Shown here: piece by piece, positions 4,148 through 58,901 of the stretch
How the letters are laid out: the number at the start of each line of letters is the position of its first letter
Numbering within the stretch: position 1 is the stretch's first letter
DNA from: Nocardioides daphniae
Lineage (GTDB): Bacteria; Actinomycetota; Actinomycetes; Propionibacteriales; Nocardioidaceae
Length of the DNA stretch: 64,000 nucleotides
Assembly: GCF_004777465.1 (NCBI RefSeq)
Contig: NZ_CP038462.1
Location: 992,001-1,056,000 of the forward strand
Direction of reading: 5' to 3'
Translations under genes and position numbers: made by a program
The notes under the pieces: generated by a model
Seen by the model: only the letters and a program-made list of their open reading frames with translations
Told to the model about the DNA's origin: nothing
Database searches by the model: none

Positions 4148-5407
4148 TCAGCGCCCGGTGGCCTCCGCGACCGCCTCGGGCGACCAGCCCAGCAGCTCGC
4201 CCAGGACGTACGCGTTGTGCTCGCCGAGGTCGGGCCCGACGTGGTGCACTGGCACCGAGCGCTCGCCGAGCACCGGCACGACGCCGGGGAAGGCGACCGG
4301 ACGTACGTCGTCGGCTCCGTCGACCTGCACGGGCAACGTCTGCACCATGTCGCGGGCCAGGAACTGCTCGTCGACCATGATGTCGGCGGCCGTCATGATC
4401 GGGCCCGCCGGGACGCCGGCGGCGTCGAGCACGGCGAGCGCCTCGTCCCGCGTACGGGCCGAGGTCCAGGCGCCGATCGCGTCGTCCAGCTCGTCGCGGC
4501 GGTCCCAGCGACCCTTGTTGTTGACCAGGCCGGGGTCGTCGGCGAGGTCGTCGCGACCGATGGCGCGCATGAACCGCGGGAAGAGGTTGTCGGCGTTGCC
4601 CGAGATGACCACGTCGCCGTCGGCGCAGGGGTAGGCGTTGGACGGCGCGATGCCCTCCATCCGTCCGCCGGTGCGTACGCGGGTCACGCCGTAGGCGGAG
4701 ACGTCGGGCACGAGCGACTCCATCATGGAGAAGATCGCCTCGTGCAGGGCGACGTCGACGTGCTGCTGGGTGGGGGAGGGGCCGGTGCTGCCGGCGCTGC
4801 GGGCCCGCTCGCGCTGGTGCAGCTGCATGACGATGCCGAACGCGGCGTAGAGCCCGGCGATCGAGTCGCCGATCGAGACCCCGACCCGCGACGGCGGGCG
4901 GTCGGCCTCGCCGACCAGCTCGCGCAGACCGCCGTACGCCTCCGCGACGGCCGCGAAGCCGGGCCGCTCCGACAGCGGTCCGGTCTGGCCGAAGGCGGAG
5001 ATCCGGGCGACCACCAGCTCGGGGTTGAGCGCGGCCAGGGTGGCGGCGTCGAGGCCCCACCTGTCCAGGGTGCCGGGGCGGAAGTTCTCGACCAGCACGT
5101 CGCAGGTGGCGATCAGCTCCTTCGCCGCGCGCAGGCCGGCCTCCGAGCGCAGGTCCAGCTCGACGGAGAGCTTGTTGCGGTTGAGGGTGCGGTAGAGCAT
5201 CGACGTCTCGCCGGCGAAGAGCCGCCAGTTGCGCAGCTCGTCACCGGTGCGCGGCCGCTCCACCTTGATCACCTCCGCCCCGAAGTCGGCGAGCATCCGC
5301 GTGGCGGTGGGGGCGGCGATGAAGTTGCCGAGCTCGAGCACCCGGATCCCGCTCAGCGGGAGGGCTGTGGGAGGCGGTCCGACGGGCTGGGGGGAGGCGT
5401 CGCTCAT
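4148..5407 (-). CDS. CaiB/BaiF family (family III) CoA-transferase
   Basis: 419 residues. Family III transferases move CoA between carboxylic acids through an aspartyl-CoA intermediate. The N-terminal block LSGIRVLELGNFIAAPTATRMLADFGAEVIKVERP is diagnostic, as are DLRSEAG, LVENFRPGTLDRWGL and QTGPLSERPGF. The candidate catalytic Asp is in the QHVDVALHEA region. The start is ATG at 5407, placed just before the conserved opening; the reading frame continues open far upstream but overlaps prfB antisense there. Its substrate is not evident, and neighbours on both sides are unrelated secreted proteins. Confidence 0.92.
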   Translation of the reverse strand: MSDASPQPVGPPPTALPLSGIRVLELGNFIAAPTATRMLADFGAEVIKVERPRTGDELRNWRLFAGETSMLYRTLNRNKLSVELDLRSEAGLRAAKELIATCDVLVENFRPGTLDRWGLDAATLAALNPELVVARISAFGQTGPLSERPGFAAVAEAYGGLRELVGEADRPPSRVGVSIGDSIAGLYAAFGIVMQLHQRERARSAGSTGPSPTQQHVDVALHEAIFSMMESLVPDVSAYGVTRVRTGGRMEGIAPSNAYPCADGDVVISGNADNLFPRFMRAIGRDDLADDPGLVNNKGRWDRRDELDDAIGAWTSARTRDEALAVLDAAGVPAGPIMTAADIMVDEQFLARDMVQTLPVQVDGADDVRPVAFPGVVPVLGERSVPVHHVGPDLGEHNAYVLGELLGWSPEAVAEATGR

Positions 5408-12400: not shown

Positions 12401-12771
12401 GGGGCTGATCGGTTTCGACTTGGGACGTTAGTTCCAGGGGAAGCGGGTCGAGAAGCCAGCGTCATCTCGTAAACGACCGCTGGAAACCTATAGTTGCCAA
12501 CGTTAAGCGCAACGACTTCGCTCTCGCTGCCTGAGCAGTGATCGAAGGGTCTGACCGGGCATCCGTCCTCGTCCCGGACCCAGGCCTCATCTAGAGGACT
12601 TGCTTGTCACTCTCTGTCAGGAGGGGTGGCAGGGACTTTTTCCTGGCTGAGCCCGTCGGTGATGTGTCTGTGCAAGCACCGGGGCCGAGAAAAGCGCCAG
12701 CACCGACTACACCCGTAGAAGACCTGGATCGGCGCTCGAGGACCGGGGTTCGATTCCCCGCAGCTCCACCA
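12401..12771 (+). ncRNA. ssrA: transfer-messenger RNA (tmRNA)
   Basis: The 5' end GGGGCTGATCGGTTTCGAC and the 3' end GGTTCGATTCCCCGCAGCTCCACCA form the tRNA-Ala-like half, with CCA encoded. The internal reading frame runs from resume codon GCC at 12496 to TGA at 12534 and encodes the 12-residue degradation tag ANVKRNDFALAA. Length is 371 nt. It rescues stalled ribosomes with SmpB (10339-10818). A strong hairpin follows at 12802. Confidence 0.97.
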
Positions 12772-35774: not shown

Positions 35775-36545
35775 TCATTCGCCGCGGAAGACCGCGGAGC
35801 GTCGCTCGAGGAAGGCGGTCACGCCCTCGACGACGTCCTTGGTGCGGGCGAGCAGCGACTGGCCGCGGTGCTCCGCCTCCATGGCGGCCTCGAGGTGGGG
35901 GATCGTCGCGGCGTTGACGGCCTTCTTCGTGGCGGCCAGCGCCAGCGGAGCCCCCGCCTCGAGCTTGCCCAGCAGCGCCTCGACGACGTCGTCGTAGGTG
36001 TCCTCGGTGGTGACGTGGCTGACCAGGCCGGCGAGGTAGGCCTCGGCCGCCTCGAGCTTCTCGGCCAGCAGGGCCATCCTCATCGCGCGGGCCCGGCCGA
36101 TGGAGGCGGCCACCGTGGCGGTCGTCGCGCCGTCGGGCATCAGGCCGAGCCGGGTGAAGGAGAGGCTGAACGAGGCGGACGGGTGGGCCACGACCAGGTC
36201 GCAGGCCAGCGCGATCGCGCAACCGAACCCGGCAGCCGGTCCGTTGACCGCGGCCAGCACCGGCTTGTCGAGGGTCGTGATCGCCCGGATCGCCCGGTTG
36301 GCCAGCGCCATGGCGGAGCCGTCGGCGACCCGGTCGGGGTCGAGGCCGGAGAGGTCGGCGCCCGAGCAGAAGGCGCGGCCCTCGCCGGTCAGGTGGACCA
36401 CCCGGACGGTGTCGTCGGTGACCGCCTCCTCCAGGGTGACGGCCAGTCGCTCGACCATCTCCGGGGAGGCGGAGTTGAGGCTGTCGGGGCGGTCCAGGCG
36501 CAGGCGGAGGATCCCGCCCTCGCGGGTGACGGCGAGATCAGTCAA
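35775..36545 (-). CDS. enoyl-CoA hydratase/isomerase family protein
   Basis: 256 residues. Crotonase-fold motifs: GEGRAFCSGADLSGL (first oxyanion-hole loop), AVNGPAAGFGCAIALACDLVVAHPSASFSLSFTRLGLMPDGATT (second loop and active-site region). The usual second catalytic Glu is replaced by Asp or Gly in this stretch, so hydratase activity is not certain. The best start is TTG 36545, inside the pncA stop region, with GGAG 7 bp upstream. Operon with pncA. Confidence 0.88.
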   Translation of the reverse strand: MTDLAVTREGGILRLRLDRPDSLNSASPEMVERLAVTLEEAVTDDTVRVVHLTGEGRAFCSGADLSGLDPDRVADGSAMALANRAIRAITTLDKPVLAAVNGPAAGFGCAIALACDLVVAHPSASFSLSFTRLGLMPDGATTATVAASIGRARAMRMALLAEKLEAAEAYLAGLVSHVTTEDTYDDVVEALLGKLEAGAPLALAATKKAVNAATIPHLEAAMEAEHRGQSLLARTKDVVEGVTAFLERRSAVFRGE

Positions 36546-37113
36546 CGCGTACTCCGGCCTCTTCCATCTCGGCCAGTGCGGCCTTGGTCGTCCCGGGCGC
36601 CACCCCGGCACACAGGCGGGTCAGGACCCTGGTCCGGAAGCCGAGCCTTGCCGCGTCCAGCGCGGTCGCACGGACGCAGTGGTCGGTCGCGATGCCGCAC
36701 ACGTCCACCTCGGCGACGTGGTGCGTACGCAGCCACTCGGCGAGCGGGATGCCGCCCTCGGTCTGCCCCTGGAAGCCGGAGTAGGCCGCCGAGTGGTGCC
36801 CCTTGAGGAAGATCGCGTCGAAGGTGCGCGGGGTGAGGTTCTCGTGGAACTCCTCGCCCGGCGTACCGACCTCGCAGTGCTTCGGCCAGCTCGTCGCGAA
36901 GTCGGGCTCGGCCGCCCAGTGCTCGCCCGGGTCGATGTGGTGGTCGCGCGTGGCGACGACGTACGTGTAGTCGGGTGACCCCGTCTCGTGGTCGCGCCGC
37001 GCCGCCAGCAGCGCCCCGATGTCGGCAGCGACCCGCGCGCCGCCGGTGACGGCCAGGGAGCCGCCCTCACAGAAGTCGTTCTGCACGTCCACGATGACCA
37101 GTGCCCGAGTCAT
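36538..37113 (-). CDS. pncA: nicotinamidase
   Basis: 191 residues. It hydrolyses nicotinamide to nicotinate for NAD salvage. Catalytic Asp in VIVDVQNDF, metal ligands in TRDHHIDPGEHW, catalytic Lys in FLKGHHSAAYS and nucleophile Cys in ATDHCVRATALDA. ATG 37113 (MTRALVIVDVQ). pncB, encoding the next enzyme, lies beyond the 1-kb repeat-bounded element; the element may have been inserted between the two. Confidence 0.95.
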   Translation of the reverse strand: MTRALVIVDVQNDFCEGGSLAVTGGARVAADIGALLAARRDHETGSPDYTYVVATRDHHIDPGEHWAAEPDFATSWPKHCEVGTPGEEFHENLTPRTFDAIFLKGHHSAAYSGFQGQTEGGIPLAEWLRTHHVAEVDVCGIATDHCVRATALDAARLGFRTRVLTRLCAGVAPGTTKAALAEMEEAGVRVD

Positions 37114-37153
37114 GGGGTCAGCGTAGACCCGGATAGGTCGCTCGGACGTGCCC

Positions 37154-37209
37154 CCAGTGGTCACTTAGTGGGTGTTTTCGCGCTCTGGTGCCCACTAAGT
37201 GACCACTGG
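37154..37209. repeat. left hairpin of the putative element
   Basis: Perfect 19-bp arms, CCAGTGGTCACTTAGTGGG (37154-37172) and its exact complement (37191-37209), around an 18-nt AT-richer loop. The inner arm also encodes the last residues and TAG stop of the endonuclease gene. Related copies lie at 38192-38248. Confidence 0.95.
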
Positions 37210-38210
37210 CAGCGGCGACAGGCGGCGCGCCAGCGTCACGCGGCCCGTCGAGGTCAAGCACGACCCCTGGAGCAGATCTCGCCACCGCCGAAGATGCAGG
37301 GGATTCCGCCTGCGGCCCAGGCTTGCGTCGATGTCACGAAGCAGGCCATCGGGATCCCGGGTGAGGTCGTACGACGTGTACCCGCGACGGATCCAGCCCG
37401 CTGCGTCGAGACGCCGAGCTCGGGCGAGGTCCCGTCGCTGCTGCTCCACCGTGAGGTGGATGTCTCCGTCGTACTCGTGGAGCACCCGGAGCCCCGCCAG
37501 TCTGAAATCCCCGCGTGCCACGAAGCGCCCCTCTTGGATGACCTCGTACTGCGACTCCACCGGGGCCTCGACCACGTCGTGGAACAGCCGAAGGATCGAT
37601 TCCCATGGTGACTCGGACCGCGGGTCGGCATGACCGAGGAGGCGCCGCAAGCGGGTCAGACCACGCAGCCGGGTGGGTAGCTCGGTCAGTTCGCCCGGGT
37701 GAAAGTCGGGGTGTCGGACCAGCGAGTCGAGCATCAGGACGAGGTCAATCTCACCGAGGTCTCTGGCCAGTCCGAGAGCCACGCTGGACAGGGGTTCGAC
37801 GCGAAGTCCGTCGACGTTGGTCGCGTCAGGAAAGAAGGTCGGCCGTATGACGCGCAGGCCAGGTCTGCGGGGACGAGGCAGGGAGGCCGGCAGTGAGACC
37901 TGAACGGGCAGGCGAGGCAGCTGGGGTAGCCACAGGCCATGGAGCTGCGCGGCAGTCAGATGGCTGAACCGCGCTTCTGGCGGTAGCACGGCCTGTCAGG
38001 CACGGAGGTCGGCCCGCCAGACGTCGTCCGCGTCTGATGGGCGGTGTGCCCCGCGGGTGACTCGAGTCCACGCGGCTCTGTCGCCCTGTCCAGCGTGAGT
38101 GATCAACACGTCCATGGGCCAACGCTGGCTTGGACACGATCTGGGTGAGTGGCTCCGAGGCGTTGCCTGTGGATCAGACTCCTGGCTGACGCCAGTGGTC
38201 AATTAGTGGC
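37191..38210. mobile_element. putative 1.0-kb element with 19-bp terminal inverted repeats
   Basis: The inner arms of the two hairpins, at 37191-37209 and 38192-38210, match as inverted repeats at 17 of 19 positions and enclose one gene that fills the interval. Outer arms (37154-37172, 38230-38248) match less well (16 of 19). The gene's stop lies in the left arm and its longest upstream reading starts in the right arm. The interval has visibly more A and T than its neighbours. No transposase of known type is encoded, and no target-site duplication is clear. Whether it moves is inference. Confidence 0.45.
37195..38115 (-). pseudogene. PD-(D/E)xK-like endonuclease-domain protein (AbiEi/DUF559-like), interrupted by TGA
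   Basis: The frame from ATG 38115 (MDVLITHAGQGDRAAW) meets TGA at 37998-37996 and then continues in the same frame as QAVLPPEARFSHLTAAQLHGLWLP. Related proteins have Trp at that place (LRAWQ-type), so TGG to TGA is the likely change. The N-terminal part resembles AbiEi-like winged-helix domains. The C-terminal part has SPWESILRLF, then GDFRLAGLRVLHEYDGDIH, a Vsr/DUF559-type nuclease core. GTG 37989 after the stop could allow a 264-residue product. The stop codon lies in the flanking palindrome. DNA cleavage is inferred from fold only. Confidence 0.65.
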
Positions 38211-38248
38211 GGTCAGAGGGCCGGCGACGGCCATTAAGTGACCAGTGG
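38192..38248. repeat. right hairpin of the putative element
   Basis: Arms CCAGTGGTCAATTAGTGGC (38192-38210) and GCCATTAAGTGACCAGTGG (38230-38248) pair with three mismatches and a 19-nt loop. Both arms share the consensus of the left hairpin. Confidence 0.88.
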
Positions 38249-38296: not shown

Positions 38297-39598
38297 TCAA
38301 TCCAGGTGCACCGTCGGGATCACCGGCTCGCCACGGCTCAGCATCCGCGCCTGCACCGGCAGCTCGTCGCGGGCAGCCAGGTGGCGCTCCCGCGAGGCCG
38401 CCAACGGCTCGCGGCCGACCACGACGCCGTCGCGCACCAGGGGCACCAGCAGCTCGCGGTCGTCGCCGTCGTCGACCGGCGGCGTACCGATGCCGACCAC
38501 CTCGGCCTCCGCGACGCCGGCAGCGTTGCGGCGACGCAGGGCGTACTTGCGCCCACCCACGGAGCCCTTGTCCTTGCTCTTCTTCGCCACCGGCACCAGC
38601 TCGCCGTCGTCGCCCTCGCGCGCGACCAGCTTGTAGACGAAGCCGGACGTGGGGTGGCCCGACCCGGTGACCAGCTGGGTGCCGACGCCGTAGCCGTCGA
38701 CGGGGGCGGCGGCCAGGCTCGCGATCGCGTACTCGTCGAGGTCGCTGGTCACCACGATCTTCGTCTCGGTGGCGCCGAGGGAGTCGAGCTGCGCGCGCAC
38801 CTGGTGGGCCAGCAGGCCGAGGTCGCCGGAGTCGATGCGCACCGCGCCGAGCTCGGGCCCCGCCACCTCGACCGCCGTACGCACGGCCTCACCGATGTCG
38901 TACGTGTCGACGAGCAGGGTGGTGCCGCGGCCCAGCGACGTGACCTGCGCGGTGAAGGCGTCGCGCTCGGTGTCGTGGAGCAGGGTGAAACTGTGCGCCG
39001 AGGTGCCGGCGGTGGGGATGCCGTGGCGGTGGCGCGCGGCCAGGTTGGAGGTCGTCTCGAACCCCGCCACGTACGCAGCCCGCGCCGCAGCAACCGCTGC
39101 CTCCTCGTGCGTCCGGCGCGACCCCATCTCGATGCAGGGGCGACCGTCGGCAGCCCACGTCATCCGCGAGGCGGCCGAGGCGATCGCCGAGTCGTGGTTG
39201 TAGATCGAGAGCAGCACCGTCTCCAGCAGCACCGCCTCGGCGAAGGTGCCCTCGACGACCACCAGCGGCGAGTAGGGCAGGTAGACCTCGCCCTCGGGGT
39301 AGCCCCAGACGTCACCGGTGAACTCGTGGTCGGCCAGCCAGGCCAAGGTCTGCTCGTCGACGACGCCGCCCTCGTCGAGCACCCCCAGCACCTCGTCGTC
39401 GAAGCGGAACCGCTCGATGGCGTCGAGCGCCCGTCCGACCCCACCGACGACGCCGTAGCGGCGGCCCTCGGGAAGGCGGCGCGGGAAGAGCTCGAAGACC
39501 GCTCGACGCTGTGCGGTCCCGGCCGCCAGCGCGGCCTGGAGCATGGTCAGCTCGTAGTGGTCGGTCAGCAGGGCGGTCGACGGCGCTCGTTCGCTCAC
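38297..39598 (-). CDS. pncB: nicotinate phosphoribosyltransferase
   Basis: 433 residues. It forms nicotinate mononucleotide from nicotinate and PRPP (Preiss-Handler NAD salvage). Blocks: [58 protein letters not shown] (phosphorylated His region), [10 protein letters not shown] and [13 protein letters not shown] 39598. It is divergent from clpS, the same arrangement as pncB1-clpS in M. tuberculosis. Confidence 0.95.
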
Positions 39599-39624
39599 GT
39601 GCCCCACTGTGCCACGATGAGGCC

Positions 39625-39918
39625 GTGTCATCTCCCAGCCCCGTCGAGGTCGAACCGGACCTGCACGTCGACGACATCCTCCGCCCTGACCGCGGGTGGG
39701 TGACCGTGGTGTGGAACGACCCGGTCAACCTGATGTCCTACGTGACCTACGTCTTCCGGACCCACTTCGGCTACTCCAAGGCCAAGGCGGAGAAGCTGAT
39801 GATGGAGGTCCACGAGGAGGGCCGCTCGTCGGTCAGCACGGGCAGTCGCGAGGAGATGGAGCGCGACGTCCAGGCCATGCACGGCTACGGCCTGTGGGCC
39901 ACGATGGAGCGGGCCTGA
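39625..39918 (+). CDS. clpS: ATP-dependent Clp protease adaptor ClpS
   Basis: 97 residues. It delivers N-degron substrates to ClpC/Clp[56 protein letters not shown] covers the whole binding fold, including the N/D pocket residues. GTG 39625. Its stop overlaps the ATG of the DUF2017 gene by one base, as in other actinobacteria. Confidence 0.96.
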
Positions 39919-58609: not shown

Positions 58610-58615
58610 CGTCCG

Positions 58616-58688
<73 letters not shown>

Positions 58689-58823: not shown

Positions 58824-58828
58824 GTCTG

Positions 58829-58901
<73 letters not shown>

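Follow-up and report, generated by a model that had tools for sequence, protein, structure and literature searches.

We analysed a window of 64,000 nucleotides from the genome of Nocardioides daphniae (G000:C1:992001-1056000, where G000 is the window's own genome and C1 a contig of 3.56 Mb). Between pncB and pncA, two genes of nicotinamide adenine dinucleotide (NAD) salvage, this window carries a segment with a palindromic site at each end and a single nuclease-like gene in between (Table 1). An earlier note on this DNA had described the segment as one gene bounded by paired 19-bp palindromes, and its account of the repeats and of the neighbouring genes holds up. All four 19-mers are where the note placed them; dinucleotide shuffling of the window gives 0.01 expected matches, and none of 100 shuffles gave four. 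The left hairpin has no mismatch across its 19 bp, the right hairpin has three, and the inner arms are identical at 17 of 19 positions. The stop codon of the gene, a TAG, lies inside the left hairpin, as the note had said. It is not supported, however, that the inner arms alone, which the note had matched as terminal inverted repeats, define the element: the unit is the whole two-arm site of ~57 bp at each end.

Table 1. Features of the palindrome-flanked element and its neighbours (positions within the window)
Feature	Position	Strand	Details
Whole element	37154..38248	.	1095 bp, in the pncB-pncA gap
Left palindromic site, 3' side of gene	37154..37209	.	Arms 37154-37171 and 37192-37209, 20-nt spacer; arms are 19 bp when 37172/37191 are counted in
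Right palindromic site, 5' side of gene	38192..38248	.	Arms 38192-38209 and 38231-38248, 21-nt spacer
Four 19-mers	37154-37172(+), 37191-37209(-), 38192-38210(+), 38230-38248(-)
Longest intact open reading frame (ORF), nuclease-like gene with DUF559/Vsr-like domain	37195..37989	-	From ORF list and domain search
5' part of nuclease-like gene	37999..38115	-	39 codons from ATG at 38113-38115; from reading frame
In-frame TGA	37996..37998	-	Trp at the same place in intact paralogues L018 and L019
pncA	36538-37164	-	Isochorismatase, E 4.9e-30
pncB	38297-39631	-	NAPRTase_N, E 7.2e-24

That the palindromes enclose one gene is right in that there is one DUF559-like gene, but its frame is broken: the 39 codons of the 5' part are followed by an in-frame TGA and then by 266 codons in the same frame. 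Judged by eye, the downstream ORF retains the residues E..D..ExDG..H..D of the nuclease part, which are invariant in 70 relatives. Because of the in-frame TGA, the window copy is probably decaying, and the idea that it is a functioning element in its own right is unsupported. The earlier note had also proposed a layout like that of repetitive extragenic palindromes (REPs) and REP-associated tyrosine transposases (RAYTs), with a nuclease-like product and possible mobility; this fits the relatives of the window gene, but not the window copy as a working element.

The window-type hairpin is present in 11 copies in N. daphniae, two that flank the gene and nine without a gene. The arm-to-arm distance is 39 bp in 10 of the 11 (the left hairpin in the window is one base shorter), and the spacers differ. 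All 11 are intergenic, and two of them reach a few bases into a gene if its earliest possible start is used; the genes around the hairpins were called with a simple codon-usage script, which called ~78% of a 132-kb sample of the genome as coding. The hairpins lie between convergent, divergent, or tandem genes, and the solo copies include three in convergent and three in divergent settings. Among 198 genomes of the bacterial family, searched with at most 3 mismatches and a fixed 21-nt spacer, none of the 197 others contained the hairpin. This 1/198 rules out a motif that is common to the relatives. A looser pattern fit 12 stretches in genome_contigs, of which five are one repeat in a metagenome-assembled genome of Thermoflexus and none are from Nocardioides, in a search whose records may exclude the genome of the window itself or one very close to it; nothing in the viral contigs fit the looser pattern. 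The five Thermoflexus stretches (L037, L042, L043, L044, and L045) share an identical 57-bp palindrome and near flanks, ~47 bp from five contig ends. This is a repeat where the assembly broke, and perhaps a mobile element of its own.

N. daphniae also encodes three close paralogues of the window gene (50-53% identity), and each sits between two copies of its own palindrome. One intact paralogue is located at G000:C1:2901203-2902117 and has a 54-bp site; a copy 100% identical to the paralogue L018 is present on a 3.61-Mb contig too. These three motifs (two, three, and four) have 5, 4, and 5 copies in the genome, with two of each at the gene. The numbers of solo copies are then 9, 3, 2, and 3 for the four paralogues, and 4/4 are flanked by palindromes that also occur gene-free. 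Since four paralogues in one genome have four motifs, the motif goes with the gene and not with the genome. Motifs two and three were found in no other genome (147 and 98 genomes searched, N. daphniae included), while motif four also occurs twice in G054, where one copy adjoins a family gene. There are two more distant DUF559 genes in N. daphniae, L113 and L114. In L114, hairpins of one motif, of the GGGAGTGTTGAGGCCA type, lie at both ends of the open frame (L114:3475-4515).

The gene family is widespread: 93 of the 98 genomes from the genus have a member, and the named relatives of one paralogous protein are mostly from Nocardioides (order Propionibacteriales). To the earlier note, homologues without the motif had counted against the idea of an element, as had palindromes without the gene. 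Both are found in a literal sense, as 93/98 genomes encode a homologue, 0/197 have the window-type hairpin, and nine sites are gene-free. But many of the homologues have palindromes of their own on both flanks, and the gene-free copies do not refute the idea because a mobile system with cognate palindromes predicts them.

We examined hairpins at 72 family loci: the window gene, its three paralogues, 28 loci from a homologue search, and 40 stretches picked from that search before their flanks were seen. (L056, at a contig end, was excluded from all hairpin counts, L108 from the 72-locus counts, and L093 and L100 from the pncB control below.) Hairpins with a score of at least 12 were found just upstream of 44 of the 72 genes and at the stop codon of 27, and four control zones of equal width contained 3, 5, 1, and 0. 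At least one hairpin with a score of 10 or more is in place at 63/72 loci. Same-motif hairpins on both sides (arm score of at least 9) were found for 32 of the 72 family genes and for none of the 203 other genes in the same stretches. By comparison, 69 and 84 of these 203 genes have some hairpin of score 9 or above at one end or the other. With wider zones, the same-motif test was positive for 4/4, 15/28, 7/21, and 7/19 genes in four sets of family genes and for 0/27 pncB genes; when flanks were paired between different loci, 0, 6.9, 11.4, 0.9, and 1.3% passed the threshold. Outside the genus, 8 of 17 loci from other genera and families of the same order have same-motif hairpins, a count made without a control set. 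Four loci with a GGTGGCGGCA-type motif (L124, L077, L128, and L055) have several motif hairpins beside the gene, instead of the single pair seen elsewhere.

The motif also tracks the protein. For the 63 hairpin-bearing loci among the 72, the more identical two proteins are, the more similar their arms (Mantel r = 0.63; none of 2000 permutations reached this value, and the largest was 0.18). The motif is common to 59% of pairs with 50-60% protein identity and to 80% of pairs with 60-80% identity, but to at most 6% of pairs below 40%. In ten chosen pairs of relatives, the ratio of nonsynonymous to synonymous substitution rates was 0.13-0.31, so by this measure the family genes are under purifying selection.

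Next, consider orthologous places in other genomes. For pncB, we used the 29 best-scoring of 55 genomes with a match, out of 59 searched; pncA was not found in four of these loci (L084, L086, L087, and L100). In 21 of the 25 relatives with both genes located, the gap between pncB and pncA is just 0-136 bp, and the other four gaps hold other inserts. The earlier note had argued that a junction filled in all relatives would speak against the idea; the 21 empty junctions rule out that the element is always there. In the four larger gaps (L080, L093, L094, and L105), tblastn with the window ORF identified no family gene, and a six-frame translation of the L105 gap showed other reading frames. L141 (G229), which flank similarity had placed with this locus, was not counted because it showed neither pncB nor pncA.

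Family elements lie between pncB and pncA in four genomes, running along the two genes in G000 and G231 and opposite to them in G054 and G108. Each has its own motif, and the proteins are 34-51% identical to the window protein. The element in G054 has only one hairpin above the score that we used. In G231 (L108, about 4472-5246), the family gene matches in two frames and is probably frameshifted, judging from the alignment; with the in-frame stop in N. daphniae, two of the four copies look broken. The gap in G108 (L058) also contains further CGAAAAA(A)CAGGTGGGGT-type repeats outside the element, which are perhaps remnants of another palindrome family.

Direction varies at other loci as well. 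L051 and L053 have flanks that are 86-91% identical, with the element between them in opposite directions, which would fit either an inversion or two insertions. Both directions also occur within a group of eight loci and within a group of three.

A survey of the place between prcA and pafA covered 70 of the 98 genomes. The family gene was within the stretch in 14 genomes and the gap was at most 130 bp in 27; among the 29 others are the two cases with a solo palindrome, along with G229, where the element is outside the stretch (L129). In one of the solo cases, G247 (L209), prcA is followed by one palindrome and then by the next gene, with no family gene. When L209 is aligned to L116, which has palindrome, gene, and palindrome, the two matching parts overlap by 30 bp, and this overlap is the palindrome. 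G232 (L217), where the alignment is less complete, likewise has a single palindrome without the gene. In L116, L129, L209, and L217, a gene that resembles flavin adenine dinucleotide (FAD)-dependent oxidoreductases by sequence lies between the element or solo palindrome and pafA.

The two ends of an element can be nearly the same. In the orthologous loci L062 and L066, each element has two 57-bp sites that match exactly, also in the spacer, and between the two genomes the sites are 95% identical; in L050, the two sites are 94% identical. These pairs point to end-to-end exchange or to duplication of the whole site at insertion, and the duplicated site in these three loci could act as a target site duplication.

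For the window ORF, Pfam gave only matches below the cut-off, to the Vsr-like families DUF559 / MTES_1575 in the C-terminal domain, and NCBIfam gave no match. DUF559 is above the cut-off in the distant relative L144. A paralogue had no relative in PDB by sequence, and Foldseek with the protein model gave nothing at E ≤ 0.001. For residues 171-270 of the model, the matches are Vsr-type nucleases, with I-Bth0305I as the closest to the nuclease domain. The N-terminal part of the model resembles Rv2827c, and that of the paralogue L018 resembles the AbiEi models of PADLOC. As modelled, the family protein is a putative fusion of an AbiEi-like part and a Vsr/I-Bth0305I-type nuclease domain. Among Pfam matches at E ≤ 1 for the window ORF and six relatives, there was no Y1 transposase family. 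Nor is the window gene in an operon with an AbiEii/DUF1814 toxin: there is a single gene between the sites, and its neighbours are pncB and pncA. Elsewhere in the window are tandem tRNA-Lys(CTT) genes (58615-58688 and 58828-58901) and a transfer-messenger RNA (tmRNA) gene (12401-12771).

The window segment belongs to a family of small elements (~1.1-1.25 kb) that consist of a palindromic site, one gene, and another palindromic site. The pair of sites is specific to the gene, recurs in the genus and beyond, and is also found gene-free; orthologous places may have the segment, lack it, or carry it in the opposite direction. The family looks like a previously undescribed type of selfish DNA element. 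With a probability of roughly two in three, we infer that a palindrome-recognising nuclease mobilises its own gene and sites, in a layout like that of REP/RAYT systems but with an unrelated enzyme. Two protein molecules would bind the two arms of the cognate ~57-bp site via their N-terminal parts, and their nuclease domains would cut the variable, non-conserved spacer of ~21 bp. If both ends were cut, the gene would be released and one site would stay behind; insertion into a cut solo site would restore site, gene, and site, with two whole sites. Because the site is symmetric, insertion would be possible in either direction. This mechanism would cover the whole sites at both ends, the solo sites, both directions, and the empty places.

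Several observations weigh against this explanation. It leaves the multiplication of solo sites unaccounted for, along with sites that have no family gene within 1.5 kb (3/6 of the fetched sites in G231, 3/6 in G193, and 2/7 in G067). Binding, cutting, excision, and new insertion are deduced from sequence, and none of them was observed. A solo palindrome could be the state before insertion, and L051 and L053 could be two insertions. At 16 sites, we found no adjoining direct repeat of 4-9 bp, and the site pairs of the four N. daphniae elements are only 50-81% alike. Among the 72 loci, just 26 have a hairpin in both zones and 9 have one in neither; also, the upstream and stop-codon zones were fixed after the hairpin positions were known, and the control zones may be coding DNA. 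The distant DUF559 gene L113 has no hairpin at its ends. Because many of the loci are orthologous (23/72 come from a single orthologous locus and point the same way), the 72-locus counts are not independent, and the agreement of motif and protein is partly the common descent of a linked unit. The mismatched flank pairs reach the threshold in as many as 6.9% and 11.4% of cases in two of the sets because sister loci have motifs in common.

A strict free-standing homing endonuclease overlaps with the mobilising nuclease that we favour and differs in how the gene is copied: the solo palindrome would be the target, and repair of the double-strand break would copy the gene in. The modelled likeness of the nuclease domain to I-Bth0305I agrees with this, a symmetric target accounts for both directions, and solo sites would serve as available targets. 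However, insertion should split the recognition site, yet a whole two-arm site is found on both flanks, which would leave the gene open to cutting at either end. We consider strict homing unlikely.

According to PMC7319586, the promoters of AbiEi and Rv2827c contain 23-bp inverted repeats to which these proteins themselves bind. This raises the alternative that the AbiEi-like part represses its own gene via the palindromes and that solo copies are operators of other genes, with no movement at all. The likeness of the N-terminal part to Rv2827c and to the PADLOC models, and the site just upstream of the gene, are as such a repressor would have them. But the same site is also at the stop codon, three of the solo sites have convergent genes on either side, orthologous places can lack the whole segment or have it reversed, and the conserved nuclease domain would have no role, which makes this alternative rather improbable.

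Another possibility is that the palindromes resemble REPs or miniature inverted-repeat transposable elements and are moved by another enzyme of the cell, with the gene caught between two of them. Most of the palindrome copies in N. daphniae do lack an adjoining gene. But in one genome, each of four different palindromes goes with a separate paralogue of one gene family, the same kind of pairing is seen in further genera and families, and the motif follows protein relatedness, so we give this little credence. Finally, the reading that a small gene simply has a transcription terminator at either end is already disfavoured and seems very improbable: the hairpins are intergenic, 5 of the 27 empty prcA-pafA gaps have a hairpin of score 12 or more, and a hairpin at one end is common among the 203 other genes, but none of those genes has matching motifs at its two ends, terminators would not form a family confined to 1/198 genomes, and three solo copies lie between divergent genes.

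How does a self-mobilising nuclease gene compare to known systems? REP-type palindromes are widespread, and to our knowledge, where a mover has been proposed for them, it has always been an HUH tyrosine transposase. In REPtrons and TIRtrons, as described in the excerpted texts of PMC8266576 and PMC3733652, palindromes or terminal repeats lie on both sides of a gene and are found gene-free as well, and the enzyme has co-evolved with the repeat. Our elements are like REP-RAYT (TnpA-REP) systems and TIRtrons in having one gene between repeats that also occur gene-free. But a RAYT is an IS200/IS605-type HUH tyrosine transposase that acts on GTAG-tagged REPs, whereas the model points to a Vsr/I-Bth0305I-type nuclease here. 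Also, unlike REPs, these sites are two-arm palindromes of ~50-60 bp, with a variable spacer in many loci. We found no GTAG/CTAC tag within 16 nt outside 16 sites of the two largest families in N. daphniae (the CGTC type was not searched). Because the defining HUH enzyme is lacking, we do not file these elements under REPtrons.

I-Bth0305I is phage-derived and intron-encoded. The predicted nuclease shares the Vsr-like EDxHD fold with it and with other EDxHD homing endonucleases, but the gene here is free-standing, includes an AbiEi-like part, and has a whole palindrome on either side, and the site is apparently unsplit. Unlike systems with AbiEi or Rv2827c antitoxins, the window element has no second gene between its sites, and a nuclease domain follows the AbiEi-like part. 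The likeness to the DUF559 and MTES_1575 (Vsr-like) families is in the C-terminal domain, and the names of those entries say only "unknown function" and "REase", with no mention of flanking palindromes or mobility. In open PMC titles and abstract openings, we found no description of a palindrome-flanked DUF559/AbiEi gene, which does not establish its absence from print. As far as this limited check goes, the kind of element is new, with REPtron anatomy but no HUH enzyme, and an EDxHD fold but apparently no splitting of the site.

The fullest form of the proposal is a new class of prokaryotic mobile element, present in several families of Propionibacteriales, in which a dimer of an AbiEi-like/Vsr-like nuclease binds its own two-arm palindrome of ~57 bp, cuts the spacer, and shifts its gene to and from sites of this kind, with gene-free palindromes left across the genome; it would be REP/RAYT-like but built independently on a restriction-type fold. 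We see the odds on this as even. If true, a second, unrelated enzyme fold would have the layout of a gene plus cognate palindromes, that is, an independent origin of this lifestyle. It would also suggest a function for many proteins that are named as hypothetical, DUF559, or "very-short-patch-repair endonuclease". And it would supply many natural pairs of proteins and sites with differing specificity, in which each paralogue has a predicted target.
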